Source: an uncultured Bacteroidales bacterium (lineage in GTDB: Bacteria; Bacteroidota; Bacteroidia; Bacteroidales; UBA932). From it: a stretch of 18,341 nucleotides of DNA. The stretch covers positions 1 through 18,341 of the forward strand of contig CAKUSF010000032.1 in assembly GCA_934678915.1 (NCBI GenBank). The letters run 5' to 3'. Below are positions 1,050 to 5,480 of the stretch, in pieces (the stretch's first letter is position 1; the number at the start of each line of letters is the position of its first letter). The position numbers and the translations under genes are program-made. Under the pieces are notes generated by a model, which saw nothing but the letters and a program-made list of their open reading frames with translations, was not told the origin of the DNA and searched no databases.

Positions 1050-3038
1050 ATGTCACCGTCAGAAGTGTTGAAAGAATATTGGGGCTACGATGGTTTTCGT
1101 CCGATGCAGGAGGAGATCATCACAGCTGCCCTTGAGGGAAAGGATGTGCTGGCCATTATGCCTACGGGCGGTGGCAAGTCGATTTGTTTTCAGGTTCCTG
1201 GCCTGATGAAAGACGGGATCACACTGGTCGTGACTCCGCTGATTGCTCTAATGAAGGATCAAGTCCAGAATCTGAACGACAGGGGAGTGAGGGCCTTGGC
1301 GATCCATGCCGGCATGAACAGACGAGAGGTAGATCTTGCTCTGAACAATGCCGCCTACGGAGATTACAAATTTCTCTATCTGTCTCCGGAAAGGCTTGGA
1401 ACTCAGCTGTTTCAGTCCTACATTGATGTCTTAGACGTCTGCTTCATAGTTGTCGATGAGGCGCACTGCATCTCTCAGTGGGGCTATGATTTCAGACCTG
1501 ACTACCTTAAAATCGGAGATCTGCGAGAGCGAATTGACGCACCAGTGATAGCTCTGACAGCCACAGCCACTCAGGCGGTCGCGCAGGACATTATGGAGCG
1601 TCTTGGCTTCAAGGAGAAGCTGTTGCTCAAAAGTGGTTTCGAGAGACCTAACCTTAGTTACATAGTGCGGCAGGTAGAGGATAAATATTCCCAGATTCTG
1701 AACATCTGCAACGGGGTTCATGGAACAGGAATAGTCTATGCGAGGAATCGTCGGAAGTGCGAGGAACTTTCGGCCTTCCTTCAGGCTCAGGGAGTCTCAG
1801 CCTCGTTCTACCACGCTGGACTTGGCGGGCAGGCAAGGGCGGAGCGTCAGTCGGCATGGAAGAGCGGTGCGATTAGGGTGATGGTCTGCACGAACGCCTT
1901 TGGAATGGGAATTGACAAGCCGGACGTGCGTTTCGTGGTGCATTATGATCTTCCGGAAAGCCCGGAGGCATATTTCCAGGAGGCTGGGCGGGCGGGACGC
2001 GATGGGAAGCGCTCGTACGCTGTGCAGCTTTGGAACGGAGTCGATGTGCGGAGGGCGAAGCAGATAGAGGATGTCTCTTTCCCTTCACTTGAATATATCG
2101 AGGACATCTACCAGAAACTTCACGTGTTCTTCGAAATTCCTTATGACACTGGAATCGGGCGCCAGCTGAAGTTTAAGATCGAGGATTTCTGCAAGCGTTT
2201 CGGCCTTCAGCGGGCTCCAGCGTTTTATGCACTCAAATACCTTGAGCGGACGGAGCATCTGACATATTCAGAGGAAGTTGACATTCCGACTAAGGTGCGG
2301 ATCAATGTTGACCGGAAGGCTTTGTATGACATTGAGTTGGCGGATCGGGGACAGGCGGCGGTGCTGGAGGCTCTGATGCGGAGTTACACGGGCATATTCT
2401 CTTTCCTTCAGCAGATCGATGAGGAATATGTTGCTCACCGCGCTGGCCAGACCGTCTCTCAACTCCGGCAGTCACTCTACCGCTTGTCATTGGCTCACGT
2501 AATCACCTATGTGCCGACCGACCACTCCGATGTGGTTGTCCTTCATCATGATAGGCTCCGTCCCGGCAATGTCAACCTAATGCCGTCCCGCTATGCGATG
2601 CTGAAAGGAACTTCGCACGACCGCAGCACCGCAATGCTTGAATATGTCAGCGAGACCACTGAGTGCCGTTCCCGCTACCTCCTCCGTTATTTCGGCCAGA
2701 CCGAGACCACCGACTGCGGCACCTGTGACATCTGCCGCGCCCGTAGAGCCTCCGCTCCAGTCCTTGAGCCTGCCGAAAGACCGGCCCCTGAGCCTGCCGA
2801 AGGGCCGGTTGCTACAACAAGCTCAGTTGCTTCGGCAATCTCAGCAACCGGCCCTGCCCGCACCATGCAGCAGATGACAAGGCGGAAGTTGATTGAATAT
2901 ATCAATGGAAAAGACGGGAAATATTCCCTCGAAGAGATCGTCTCCGAGTTCGACAACCCCTCTAAAAACTATTCCCCCGACTACCTAGACATCCTCCGCA
3001 ACCTCATCGACAACGGTGATGTGCCGATGTACAGGTGA
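1050..3038 (+). CDS. recQ: RecQ-family ATP-dependent DNA helicase
   Basis: A 3'-5' DNA helicase of superfamily 2 that unwinds recombination and stalled-fork structures. It is 662 residues, longer than E. coli RecQ (about 609). The helicase core has Walker A PTGGGKS at 38-44, DEAH at 136-139 followed by CISQWGYDFRPDY, ALTATA near 168, and the motif VI region QEAGRAGR at 310-317. Four cysteines, C539, C556, C559 and C562, have the C-x16-C-x2-C-x2-C spacing of the RecQ zinc cluster. Here the cluster lies after a long helical region, as in a second RecQ type common in Bacteroidetes, and there is no evident HRDC domain. A Pro/Ala/Glu linker (about 571-602) follows the zinc cluster and is encoded by a palindromic repeat listed separately. 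The last 55 residues resemble a small helical domain. The stop abuts the stop of the convergent downstream gene. Confidence 0.93.
   Translation: MSPSEVLKEYWGYDGFRPMQEEIITAALEGKDVLAIMPTGGGKSICFQVPGLMKDGITLVVTPLIALMKDQVQNLNDRGVRALAIHAGMNRREVDLALNNAAYGDYKFLYLSPERLGTQLFQSYIDVLDVCFIVVDEAHCISQWGYDFRPDYLKIGDLRERIDAPVIALTATATQAVAQDIMERLGFKEKLLLKSGFERPNLSYIVRQVEDKYSQILNICNGVHGTGIVYARNRRKCEELSAFLQAQGVSASFYHAGLGGQARAERQSAWKSGAIRVMVCTNAFGMGIDKPDVRFVVHYDLPESPEAYFQEAGRAGRDGKRSYAVQLWNGVDVRRAKQIEDVSFPSLEYIEDIYQKLHVFFEIPYDTGIGRQLKFKIEDFCKRFGLQRAPAFYALKYLERTEHLTYSEEVDIPTKVRINVDRKALYDIELADRGQAAVLEALMRSYTGIFSFLQQIDEEYVAHRAGQTVSQLRQSLYRLSLAHVITYVPTDHSDVVVLHHDRLRPGNVNLMPSRYAMLKGTSHDRSTAMLEYVSETTECRSRYLLRYFGQTETTDCGTCDICRARRASAPVLEPAERPAPEPAEGPVATTSSVASAISATGPARTMQQMTRRKLIEYINGKDGKYSLEEIVSEFDNPSKNYSPDYLDILRNLIDNGDVPMYR
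2762..2855 (+). repeat. Palindromic repeat inserted in frame in recQ
   Basis: Two 24-base direct units occupy 2762-2785 and 2786-2809 and share TTGAGCCTGCCGAA / CTGAGCCTGCCGAA. The second unit runs into a perfect 13-base inverted repeat, AGGGCCGGTTGCT at 2801-2813 and its complement at 2843-2855, around a 29-nt loop. That loop contains TTGC-TTCG-GCAA at 2827-2838. An alternative hairpin pairs 2780-2787 with 2802-2809. CTTCGGCAATCTCAG at 2830-2844 is an inverted copy of CTGAGCCTGCCGAAG at 2788-2802 with two differences. The whole element is read in frame as a Pro/Ala/Glu/Ser/Thr linker at about residues 571-602. The related element is in mtaB at 5009-5072. Confidence 0.75.
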
Positions 3039-3980
3039 TCATTCTATGACAAGGCCGTCGTAGGCGGGACGGACGATTGAATGGATGCCACGGTCGCGGC
3101 AAAGGGCTTCGAGGTCTTTGCTGAACTGGTTGTGACGGGGGAATGTGTGGGAGAGGTGGGTGAGCCAGGTGTGTTCCGCACCGATGCGGTCGGCCAACTC
3201 AAGGGCTTCGTCAAGACTGAAGTGCGAGTGATGTTTCTTGTAGCCTACCGTGTTGAGGGTCACATGCTTGAGACCATGTAGTTTCTCGAATTCGCATTCG
3301 GGAATGAAACTCATGTCCGTGATGTAGGCGATGTCACCGAAACGGAATCCTAAGACTGGCAGTTTGTCGTGCAGCCCTCGAATCGGTATGATTTCCACTC
3401 CTCCGGTCGAGGCGGCCATTGATGCCGGGTCCGCCTTATCGATGATGTCCTCCAACTTGCGGCCGGTCGGAATCAGCCTACCGTCCGGCATTTTGTAATG
3501 GTAGCCGACATCATGAACCCAGACCAGTTCCATGTCCTTGGCGTTAGGGTAGACCAAGAACGGATTCTCGTCAATAATGTGTAGGTGCCATTCCGGGGCG
3601 CCTGGGTATTTCGGAAAAGCAAAGACGTAAGGATATTCCTTTATTAGGTCATTGAGGACGTTTCGCTCGCAGTAGATTTCGGCTGCCCGTTTGTCGATGT
3701 AGTTGAGCGAGCGCACATCGTCAAGGCCTCCGGTGTGGTCCTTGTGGTTGTGTGTCAGTAGTATGGCATCAAGATGGCAAAGGTCGTGGGCAAGCATCTG
3801 CATCCTGAAATCCGGCCCAGCGTCCACAAGGATGTTCAGCCCGCCATATTCAACAAACACGGAGGAGCGGAACCGCTTGTCCTTCGCGTCCGGGGATTTG
3901 CACACATCGCATTTGCAGCCGATGATCGGAACCCCCTGTGAGGTTCCAGTGCCCAAGAATGTAAGCCTTGCCTTGTCCAT
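3039..3980 (-). CDS. PhnP-like metallo-beta-lactamase-fold hydrolase
   Basis: A 313-residue cytoplasmic metallohydrolase, probably a phosphodiesterase. It opens LTFLGTGTSQGVPIIGC and has C22, C24 and C27 in the C-x-C-x2-C pattern that binds a structural zinc in PhnP. The metal-binding motif HNHKDH is at 77-82, with DAGPDFR at 53-59, TDMSF in the second half, and LTHLSHTF near the C-terminus supplying a late histidine. PhnP proper hydrolyses phosphoribosyl cyclic phosphate in phosphonate breakdown, but no phosphonate genes are nearby, so the substrate here is unknown. It lies 93 bases downstream of mtaB on the same strand, and I see no TAnnTTTG box in that gap, so co-transcription with folB and mtaB is likely. 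Its stop codon touches that of recQ. Confidence 0.85.
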   Translation of the reverse strand: MDKARLTFLGTGTSQGVPIIGCKCDVCKSPDAKDKRFRSSVFVEYGGLNILVDAGPDFRMQMLAHDLCHLDAILLTHNHKDHTGGLDDVRSLNYIDKRAAEIYCERNVLNDLIKEYPYVFAFPKYPGAPEWHLHIIDENPFLVYPNAKDMELVWVHDVGYHYKMPDGRLIPTGRKLEDIIDKADPASMAASTGGVEIIPIRGLHDKLPVLGFRFGDIAYITDMSFIPECEFEKLHGLKHVTLNTVGYKKHHSHFSLDEALELADRIGAEHTWLTHLSHTFPRHNQFSKDLEALCRDRGIHSIVRPAYDGLVIE

Positions 3981-4073
3981 GATATTAGTGAATTGTGTCT
4001 TTGCTTTTGTAAATGTTTGAAATTGAGGATGTCTATTGATTTTTAAGCCGGGCCTGATTCCTCGAAACGAATG

Positions 4074-5480
4074 TCAGATTGTAATGTCTTCTATCATATT
4101 CACAAGCGCCGGGTCATAAGGCCTTTCGATGCGGATGTAGTTGCCAGTGTAGCCTCCCATCAGCCCGTCCTTGACATCGGATTCCCAAAGCACCTGCGAG
4201 CGTCTGCCCCGGTTCTTCGCCACAAATTCCGAATGCAATCTGGTGCATAACTCCTCAAGCCTTGCCACCCGTTCCGTCTTTACAGAATCTTTGACCTGAT
4301 CCTTCCATCCGGCAGCGACAGTGCCCGGACGTCGGGAGTACGGGAACACATGGATGAACGCTGGTTTAACGCGGTCCTTAAGGAATGAATAGGTCTCCTC
4401 GAAGAGCTCATCCGTCTCTCCCGGCAGACCTGCTATGACATCTATGCCGAAGAACACGAACGGTTTGGAGGTGTCACCGGGTTTAGGATCCATCACGGAG
4501 CGGATGTAGTCGATCCTGTCGGTGAAGAACTCCGTAGTGTAGCGTCGGCCGACTCTTTTGAGAATCGTGTCCGACCCTGACTGTAAGGGAATATGAAAGT
4601 GTGGCTGGAACTTTGTGCCGGAGGCTATCCAGTCGATGATGTCTTCGGTGATGAGGTTCGGCTCGATTGACGAAATTCGGTAACGTTCGATTCCCTCGAC
4701 ATCGTTCAGGCGCTTCAGCAAGTCGAGGAAGCTTTCACCTGTGGTCCTGCCGAAGTCTCCAGTGTTGACTCCTGTGATGACGATCTCCTTGATTCCAGAT
4801 TTCGCTATCTTTTGGGCCTGCTCCAGAACCTCAGAAATCGGGATATTCCTTGAATTGCCCCTCGCGTAAGGAACTGTGCAGTAGGCGCAGAAGTTGTTGC
4901 ATCCGTCCTGCACCTTGAGGAATGACCTCGTTCTTTCCTCCGAAGAGAACGCTGTCATCGTCTCCTTCGAGATCTCCTTATACTCCGCCGCGCTCATCGG
5001 CTTCTGATCTTTCGGTCCCTGAGCTTGCCGAAGGGCCGTAGCAGTCGCTTCGACAGGCTCAGCGACCGAAAGTGATGGCTCACTGGTCGAGACCTGTGAG
5101 CCGCCAGAGATGGCTGTGCCATCACTGGCAGCGTCCTTCTTACGAAGAAGCTCCATTGTCTCGGAAACGACACGTGACTTCTCCTTGGCACCGAACACAA
5201 GGGCGACACCCTCAATGGCCTGAAGATCGTCTCTGCGGAGTTCAGCGTAACAGCCTGTCACGATGATCCTTGCCTCAGGTGAAGTGCGGTGCATCTTCCG
5301 GATTACATTCCGGCACTTCTTCTCTGCCCTCTCGGTGACCGAACAAGTGTTGATGAGATAGACATCGGCCTTGTCCTCCCACGGCACGACCGTGAGGCCG
5401 TTCGCGACGAACCCTCTCTCGTAAGTCGAAGTCTCAGCGTAGTTCAACTTGCAGCCAAGAGTCAGAAACGCTATCTTCAT
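4074..5480 (-). CDS. mtaB: tRNA (t6A37) methylthiotransferase MtaB
   Basis: A radical-SAM enzyme that converts t6A to ms2t6A at position 37 of tRNAs reading ANN codons, using two [4Fe-4S] clusters. I start it at the ATG at 5478-5480, giving 468 residues; an in-frame ATG 27 bases earlier lies inside folB and lacks the good Shine-Dalgarno AAGGAG at 5489-5494. The protein begins MKIAFLTLGCKLNYAET. The N-terminal cluster cysteines are C10, C46 (INTCSVTERAEKKC) and C77 (VTGCYAE). The radical-SAM motif is C194-x3-C198-x2-C201 in QDGCNNFCAYCTVPYARG. The C-terminus (RSQVLWES... to GGYTGNYIRIE) looks like a TRAM domain. Between the N-terminal domain and the radical-SAM core there is an unusual Ala/Glu/Gln-rich stretch at about 128-161, encoded largely by a palindromic repeat. 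MtaB proteins are usually about 430-450 residues, so this one is longer by roughly that insert. Confidence 0.92.
   Translation of the reverse strand: MKIAFLTLGCKLNYAETSTYERGFVANGLTVVPWEDKADVYLINTCSVTERAEKKCRNVIRKMHRTSPEARIIVTGCYAELRRDDLQAIEGVALVFGAKEKSRVVSETMELLRKKDAASDGTAISGGSQVSTSEPSLSVAEPVEATATALRQAQGPKDQKPMSAAEYKEISKETMTAFSSEERTRSFLKVQDGCNNFCAYCTVPYARGNSRNIPISEVLEQAQKIAKSGIKEIVITGVNTGDFGRTTGESFLDLLKRLNDVEGIERYRISSIEPNLITEDIIDWIASGTKFQPHFHIPLQSGSDTILKRVGRRYTTEFFTDRIDYIRSVMDPKPGDTSKPFVFFGIDVIAGLPGETDELFEETYSFLKDRVKPAFIHVFPYSRRPGTVAAGWKDQVKDSVKTERVARLEELCTRLHSEFVAKNRGRRSQVLWESDVKDGLMGGYTGNYIRIERPYDPALVNMIEDITI
5009..5072 (-). repeat. Palindromic repeat inserted in frame in mtaB
   Basis: A long imperfect inverted repeat: 5009-5033 pairs with 5048-5072, 22 of 25 positions matching, around a 14-base loop. 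The outer nine bases (CTTTCGGTC / GACCGAAAG) pair perfectly. In the mtaB reading direction it contains GCTGAGCCTGTCGAAG and CTTCGGCAAGCTCAG, closely matching GAGCCTGCCGAA and CTTCGGCAATCTCAG in the recQ element. Both copies read their first arm in the same frame (x-E-P-A/V-E); the second arm is in a different frame in the two genes. It encodes about residues 137-158 of MtaB. Confidence 0.75.

Follow-up and report, generated by a model that had tools for sequence, protein, structure and literature searches.

A short hairpin repeat family in frame within recQ, mtaB and other genes of Bacteroidales

Hairpin units within recQ and mtaB

Two unrelated genes of an uncultured Bacteroidales bacterium, recQ and mtaB, carry in-frame copies of a short palindromic repeat, which is the subject of this study. 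The window, i.e., the whole stretch of DNA analysed, is 18,341 nt long and corresponds to positions 1-18,341 of contig CAKUSF010000032.1 (assembly GCA_934678915.1). Both proteins matched Bacteroidales proteins, and the source labels on some of them (RecQ relatives P0162 and P0233, 89% and 88%, respectively, from Candidatus Cryptobacteroides; MtaB relative P0006, 90%, from 'Rikenell...') suggest that the window comes from a Cryptobacteroides-like clade. The two genes and their repeat units are as follows.

1050..3038, + strand: recQ, encoding a RecQ-family helicase of 662 amino acids (aa), host of the first element; Pfam DEAD, Helicase_C and RecQ_Zn_bind (522-563), NCBIfam recQ_fam above cut-off
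2754..2852, + strand: recQ insert of ~33 codons, APVLEPAERPAPEPAEGPVATTSSVASAISATG, C-terminal to the zinc-binding domain and missing in four relatives (below)
2759..2783, + strand: recQ unit 1, core 2765-2777; 1 core mismatch, 2/3 inner stem pairs
2783..2807, + strand: recQ unit 2, core 2789-2801, 24 nt past unit 1 and in phase with it; 1 core mismatch, 3/3 inner stem pairs
2807..2831, - strand: recQ unit 3, degenerate, core 2813-2825; 2 core mismatches, 1/3 inner stem pairs
2825..2849, - strand: recQ unit 4, core 2831-2843; 2 core mismatches, 3/3 inner stem pairs, stem TGC/GCA
4074..5480, - strand: mtaB, encoding a tRNA t6A37 methylthiotransferase (radical SAM) of 467 aa, host of the second element; TIGR01579 at 402 bits vs a cut-off of 357
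5009..5072, no strand assigned: mtaB element, a head-to-head pair with cores at 5020-5032 (+) and 5049-5061 (-), encoding SVAEPVEATATALRQAQGPK; recognised by its 25-nt arms, the unit scan and its folds

A first-pass annotation of this DNA had claimed that recQ and mtaB share two DNA words whose order is the same along their coding strands, and the sequence confirmed this. In recQ, GAGCCTGCCGAA occurs at 2766 and 2790, inside a 24-nt tandem (2757-2780 and 2781-2804, 79%), CTTCGGCAATCTCAG occurs at 2830, and a perfect 13-nt inverted repeat is formed by 2801-2813 and 2843-2855. In mtaB, the 25-nt arms at 5009-5033 and 5048-5072 are complementary at 22 positions (88%). The tandem and the pairing of both arms are thus exactly as had been annotated, and so is the reading of the arms: the first encodes EP(A/V)E in both proteins, and the second is read in different frames (SAIS in RecQ, LRQAQ in MtaB). 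The inserts also lie where they had been placed, that of RecQ past the zinc-binding domain and that of MtaB between UPF0004 (1-96) and Radical_SAM (188-366; Pfam, 467-aa query). The annotation had counted one copy per gene; the family is indeed present in both, but the unit scan resolved four units in recQ, one of them degenerate, and two in mtaB.

Allowing up to one mismatch, GAGCYTGYCGAA matched the window five times vs 0.41 matches expected, a number reached in none of 200 shuffles, and an Rfam search of the window at gathering thresholds returned no match to known RNAs. The mtaB pair folds strongly on both strands (RNA z -7.4 and -5.9; DNA z -6.2 and -5.7; none of 200 shuffles as good). 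For the recQ copy, the RNA folds gave z -1.9 on the + strand (12 of 200 shuffles as good) and -3.2 on the - strand (1 of 200), and the DNA folds -2.5 (7 of 200) and -3.3 (0 of 200), respectively. An antisense look-alike of the unit at 1771-1793 of recQ encodes a segment common to 17 aligned relatives and is probably due to chance.

The annotation further raised the question of whether the two segments are missing in relatives. In four RecQ proteins of 89-90% identity (P0134, P0137, P0170 and P0212), RRAS is followed within a few residues by the conserved QQMTR and the segment of ~33 residues is missing, and the linker between UPF0004 and Radical_SAM is near-empty in one MtaB protein (P0113, 433 aa, 84% identity). 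Closer relatives have inserts that differ in number or kind: shorter forms are found in the RecQ protein P0121 (95%) and longer ones in P0126 and P0127, and MtaB relatives reach a total length of 547 aa (P0049). The repeat peptides AEPVEA and LRQAQGP are present in many of 26 aligned MtaB proteins, with other inserts in the rest. The MtaB of the window, insert included, still scores above the curated MtaB cut-off.

The repeat family in related genomes

The units belong to a family of the form NNNN-TGAGCYTGYCGAA-NNNN, in which the core T-GAG-CYTGY-CGA-A is conserved and the stem covaries. Covariation was assessed over every distinct site matching the 11-nt inner core at up to one mismatch (n = 309), unfiltered for the stem. 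Watson-Crick pairs were found at stem pairs 1-4 in 186, 186, 193 and 179 of the 309, respectively, vs maxima of 156, 132, 131 and 137 in 2000 shuffles, and these counts are underestimates because the 309 include chance matches to the core. At stem position 5 (-5/+5), 63 of 309 were Watson-Crick (shuffle mean, 67), the commonest pair in the clade being T with C (103 of 309); A and T prevail at this position in genome G131. Inside the four covarying pairs, two G-A mismatches, which may form sheared G-A pairs, flank the closing G-C around CYTGY. Loops other than YTGY occur with the same frame around them, namely GAAG, and GGAGT in G222 and the mtaB loci of related species; the loop-variant search found no core in reversed letter order. 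Among the clade copies listed, the 5' edge, CCGGTCCC, is mostly sharp with a different preceding sequence for each copy, and the 3' edge is mostly GGGCCG or GGGGTC. The 5' edge reads CCGGTC(C) in the clade vs (C/T)GTCA in other Bacteroidota.

Copy number is very patchy. CTGAGCYTGYCGAAG occurred in 51-81 copies in three of 199 genomes of one family and in 0-2 copies in the other 196, with 0-1 per strand for the reversed control. Among the 30 genomes nearest by RecQ (398 searched), exact copies numbered 51, 43, 38, 14, 8, 6, 4 and 2, and 0-1 in the other 22, so that the genome-wide count called for by the annotation, made here in relatives, comes to 38-51 in three near genomes. A shorter word gave 0-7 copies in ten genomes vs 0-4 for its reversed control. 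Across the phylum, at least one copy of TGAGCYTGTCGAAG was present in 97 of 296 genomes and at least 20 copies in ten, G139 among them. The edge word CCGGTYCCTGAGC was nearly confined to the clade in a search of 23 genomes: 18-51 copies in G139, G321, G346, G381, G394 and G222, 2-5 in G251, G354, G306, G290 and G106, one in G614, and none in G034, G131, G476, G570 or G416. A plasmid search with the window's own element gave no match at E 0.01. With the consensus and E up to 10, 60 records were matched, most often from Moraxella (16) and Sphingobium (15), and many of the E-values were weak; similar hairpins were also found on plasmids of Microbacterium and others, and 30 of 40 matches listed had no annotated gene underneath, in a plasmid gene table that is incomplete.

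We located units (core with up to one mismatch, at least 2/3 stem pairs) in sampled stretches of three near genomes, G139, G321 and G346, with open reading frames (ORFs) called mechanically. Of 114 elements, 84 were single units, dimers also being present, and 102 lay wholly in ORFs of at least 100 aa (98 for at least 150 aa, 90 for at least 200 aa). The same crude method assigned 93-95%, 90-93% and 85-89% of the DNA, respectively, to such ORFs, so that coding DNA appears to be neither clearly avoided nor preferred. By contrast, only eight of 37 elements in G034 and G131 were in ORFs of at least 100 aa (Fisher's test, 1e-14); the corresponding figure was 7 of 49 for the exact core in eight more distant Bacteroidota genomes, and 15 of 86 in these ten genomes together. 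Units within genes showed no significant strand preference (58 sense vs 75 antisense, p 0.17).

The host proteins were surveyed in 20 ORFs longer than 300 aa from G139 and G321, taken mostly in list order with several skipped. Pfam domains were detected in 16 of them, from which the hosts may be read as DnaG-, MetG-, PurD-, DXS-, DnaX-, PriA-, Mur-ligase-, DsbD- and sigma-54-activator-like proteins. Twelve of 18 elements lay outside the listed domain stretches, though these make up 63% of the residues (p 0.01; hand tally over 16 proteins, with a second stretch of one family in L201 left out). Nine more host proteins, chosen for having homologues, all contained domains. Among the intragenic elements whose site is spanned by a homologue, 20 of 54 had at least one homologue, some distant, in which at least half of the element is missing, as in two S9-family peptidases, a RelA/SpoT protein and an aminotransferase. 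The 45-nt insert in an S9 peptidase is clean at the DNA level against two homologues, and one loop of an OPT transporter differs among three species with copies and a fourth without the unit.

Five of the six reading frames of the unit are open, and the frame containing TGA was used by one of 133 units. The open frames were used unequally, by 44 (EPVEG), 37 (LRQAQG), 30 (PSTGSGT), 13 (SLSLSK) and 8 (PFDKLRD) units (chi-square test, p 3e-7). Counting only the first unit per element gave 33/26/27/10/6 (p 2e-5), which is the safer value since units within an element are not independent. The spacing of neighbours is also locked in phase: among the CCGGTYCCTGAGC copies listed in G251, G346, G381 and G394, 36 of 38 spacings between same-strand neighbours within 210 nt were multiples of three, the two others both being 20 nt in one contig of G394, vs 9 of 24 for listed neighbours of any orientation in other Bacteroidota. 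The excess persists when the chance probability of a shared frame is put at 0.63, as derived from the sense-frame counts (p 6e-6). Close to several copies lies a second, partial one, in most cases at a distance divisible by three. The excess of such spacings suggests that tandem copies arise also by in-frame duplication.

Intergenic relatives and the proposed origin of the coding copies

The same core is found mostly between genes elsewhere in the phylum. In G476, G570, G416, G614 and others, TGTCA or CGTCA usually stands before the core. In the eight distant genomes, 42 of 49 elements lie outside ORFs, and several non-clade genomes have head-to-head pairs ~58-60 nt apart. The likeness to repetitive extragenic palindromes (REPs) and to Rickettsia palindromic elements (RPEs) drawn by the annotation therefore holds on both sides, as the core behaves as a mostly intergenic REP in other Bacteroidota and lies mostly in ORFs in the three near relatives. 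According to the parts of Di Nocera et al. (2013; PMC3733652) considered here, the CGTC superfamily of REPs comprises short hairpins, predominantly head-to-head dimers, which are patchy among species, occur in Bacteroidetes among five phyla, and are mostly intergenic with some intragenic copies. They are defined there by an unpaired 5' tag CGTC (variants TGTC and CCTC), complementary AT at the first two stem positions, a stem of 8-9 bp, a loop of 4-5 nt and a 3-bp tail, mostly CCA. Judged by description against the four CGTC families, the copies of G034, G131, G476, G570 and most of G614 resemble them in their TGTC or CGTC tag and in lying mostly between ORFs. In contrast, GGTC is the commonest tag in G139, G321 and G346 and in those units of the window that keep it, the first AT stem pairs are lacking in the clade, the GGGCCG/GGGGTC edge stands in place of the CCA tail, and most sampled copies are inside ORFs. 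Without tag and AT pairs, the clade copies are not CGTC REPs by the published definition; the shared core nonetheless suggests that the family descended from them.

G139 contains both kinds, with units embedded within the loop of TGTCATTCTGAGC...GCGAAGAATC elements, TGTCAT(T/C)CTGAGC...GCGAAG(A/G)ATC, a CGTC-type REP (L128:137, L128:263, L125:9538 and L238:5006). In addition, two neighbouring genes of this genome have units flanked by TTAGGCCGTACTCAGCCGCAG... and GAATGGACGCGGCCGGG (L125:1727 and L125:4964); words from these flanks recur at 6-7 examined loci and perhaps represent another repeat family.

RPEs are palindromic DNA segments of 105-146 bp found in frame in unrelated, conserved Rickettsia genes (Ogata et al. 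2000, through passages of PMC2229807, PMC10969869 and PMC3733652), and a review passage reports that a guanylate kinase bearing one is translated and active with a changed substrate affinity. The clade element shares the hallmark of this kind, an in-frame palindromic repeat in unrelated conserved genes that is missing in homologues. Compared by description, it differs in phylum, in its ~25 nt per unit (single, paired or tandem) and in having a core in common with intergenic REPs. Our best reading is that it works like RPEs, albeit with a much shorter sequence, and that its inserts are predicted to be translated. As in the REP doublets forming hairpins (REPINs) of the REP-associated tyrosine transposase (RAYT) system, paired inverted hairpins are spread through the genome; unlike the system as described in the parts of PMC3116915 and PMC2817692 consulted, the family shows no RAYT association among the loci examined and is not mainly extragenic. 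In-frame palindromic elements are already known from Rickettsia (passages of PMC2229807 and PMC10969869), as are intragenic REPs from several phyla (PMC3733652). Literature searches by repeat word, peptide and topic found no description of this family, which does not exclude that one exists, and the portions of PMC8040213 and PMC6006769 consulted mention nothing of it. As far as these searches show, the family itself, the predominance of its intragenic copies in a Bacteroidota clade, the difference from its intergenic relative, and the frame and spacing statistics are new.

We consider it very probable that the segments in recQ and mtaB are short REP-type hairpin copies of a CGTC-like lineage that turned into a protein-coding palindromic element in the Cryptobacteroides-like clade. 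The annotation had proposed a mobile element that keeps reading frames open: the in-frame inserts and empty sites stand, and from these the copies appear to arise by insertion of a mobile hairpin, presumably by an enzyme acting in trans. Neither few further copies nor linkers conserved in distant relatives by unrelated DNA, the outcomes named there as speaking against such an element, were observed. In the scenario we favour, a CGTC-like REP lineage would have changed its tag from (C/T)GTCA to CCGGTC(C) in the window's clade, and the hairpin would insert at many sites, frame-breaking copies being lost thereafter. Survivors would be in-frame inserts with a net length of a multiple of three in tolerant loops or interdomain linkers, and the EPVEG, LRQAQG and PSTGSGT frames, which encode flexible-looking peptides, would be kept more often than SLSLSK and PFDKLRD. 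Purifying selection is probably behind the frame and linker bias.

Several observations weigh against this interpretation. The copy and location counts come from relatives' genomes, the window's own genome being outside the counted set, and the location counts depend on the mechanical ORF calling. Part of the recQ copy has decayed, and its fold on the + strand is weak. A homologue spanning the site was available in the compared DNA for 54 of 110 intragenic elements (five rich genomes), and the spanned elements other than the 20 mentioned above align with dissimilar or similar residues. Of 11 filled/empty DNA pairs, two against E141 were clean and most others ragged, and no target-site duplication was established in these comparisons. 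The spacing pairs were tallied by hand with a control that follows a different orientation rule, and the non-independence of units within an element takes some force from the frame statistics. Finally, no transposase tied to the family was found: none of 49 Y1_Tnp loci had a proper unit in the flanks examined.

The last point bears on whether the family is a RAYT-driven set of REPINs, in which a Y1/HUH transposase of the RAYT group recognises and moves the unit. Head-to-head hairpins are typical of REPINs. Y1_Tnp was detected in 16 of 20 clade and neighbour genomes at E 0.01 (13 above cut-off), with many ORFs of ~290-350 aa, four scanned Y1 proteins match the model of the REP-associated tyrosine transposase, all below cut-off, and five wider contexts contained one proper unit, 1.8 kb away from a Y1 gene of G139 (L147). 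The RAYT/IS200-like transposase check called for by the annotation was therefore positive as to the presence of Y1 genes but not as to their linkage with the unit. Y1 genes are found in copy-poor genomes too (Y1_Tnp searches of 23 and 20 genomes), whereas none was detected at E 0.001 in the copy-rich G131, a small assembly. The 49 loci, of ~1.6-3.3 kb each, yielded one stemless core (L298) and, at L306, a stem whose core has three mismatches, and several Y1 genes have palindromes of their own. Since Y1 genes occur in copy-rich and copy-poor genomes alike with no proper unit at these loci, a RAYT link is as yet unsupported, and we regard it as doubtful; CGTC REPs were likewise reported without a linked transposase (Table 1 of PMC3733652). 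Apart from the family, the Y1-transposase genes at L301, L307 and L308 (~290-320 aa) are flanked by repeats of their own (GACCATGTG and CACATGG kinds) and are candidate RAYT-REP pairs.

A more active version of the coding element can be conceived, in which insertion or amplification is biased to coding DNA and to frame-keeping lengths, seeding flexible linkers throughout the proteome, with new loop types in each species. Its basis is the otherwise unexplained intragenic excess: on a rough estimate that takes hits as equal in coding and intergenic DNA, the intragenic share exceeds what filtering alone would leave, because most phases would break the gene. We hold this to be unlikely. Another possibility is that the linkers grew only locally, existing repeats being extended through replication slippage and gene conversion, as the partial second copies mostly a multiple of three away have the look of in-frame tandem duplication. 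Nevertheless, many unrelated genes contain this core, which occurs in either orientation and in five frames; homologues with empty sites exist as well, and slippage cannot seed new loci. We consider a purely local origin very improbable. About equally improbable, in our judgement a shade more so, is a functional DNA or RNA motif (an uptake signal, a gyrase or chaperone site, or an mRNA hairpin) kept in genes by selection. The constrained core, the covarying stem and the occurrence of the core in about a third of the phylum genomes searched would suit such a motif, but copy number varies greatly between related genomes, the strands are used without clear preference in genes, and the loop differs between related species. 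As for independent evolution of similar low-complexity linkers, the encoded peptides are indeed linker-like; the likeness, however, is one of DNA on both strands and in different frames, i.e., independent of frame, and the stem bases covary, which leaves this explanation hardly any weight.

If the element is indeed a coding offshoot of an intergenic REP, it adds, from a further phylum and a clade recorded in gut and rumen samples, a lineage with most of its sampled palindromic repeats in genes. Related bacteria still have the core as a mostly intergenic REP, so that the transition from extragenic to coding element can be studied directly. Hairpin repeats would then be a source of interdomain linkers in conserved enzymes, and the family would explain the EPVEG, LRQAQG and PSTGSGT peptides that recur in predicted proteins, with the warning that such shared linkers are no evidence of homology.

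Further palindromes in the mtaB linker

The mtaB linker, whose DNA was compared in 24 of 26 loci and the window, contains palindromes of other sequence as well.

5068..5135, no strand assigned: second hairpin pair, of unrelated sequence, in the same mtaB linker; inverted repeats 5077-5088/5091-5102 and 5100-5114/5118-5132; RNA z -5.1, DNA z -5.7

With hairpins of another sequence beside the REP pair, the linker seems to gather several kinds of palindrome. A composite palindrome of ~110 nt around CCTGGCCGCCCGYGGCCAGG was also observed in the mtaB linkers of L310, L311, L312, L313, L314, L316 and L319 (genomes G381, G222, G306, G251, G354, G139 and G394), in an orientation and frame that vary by species. 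We considered and rejected the idea that it is a dispersed family, as its exact core occurs once, at mtaB, in seven of 16 genomes and twice in G394, one of the two being at mtaB; with two mismatches allowed, ten more places were found. In the protein alignment, the MtaB relatives P0036, P0043, P0072 and others have further linker inserts (PSALRAPSRPAYGGPP... and VAARGHVNGWTA...), which are possibly more coding palindromes.

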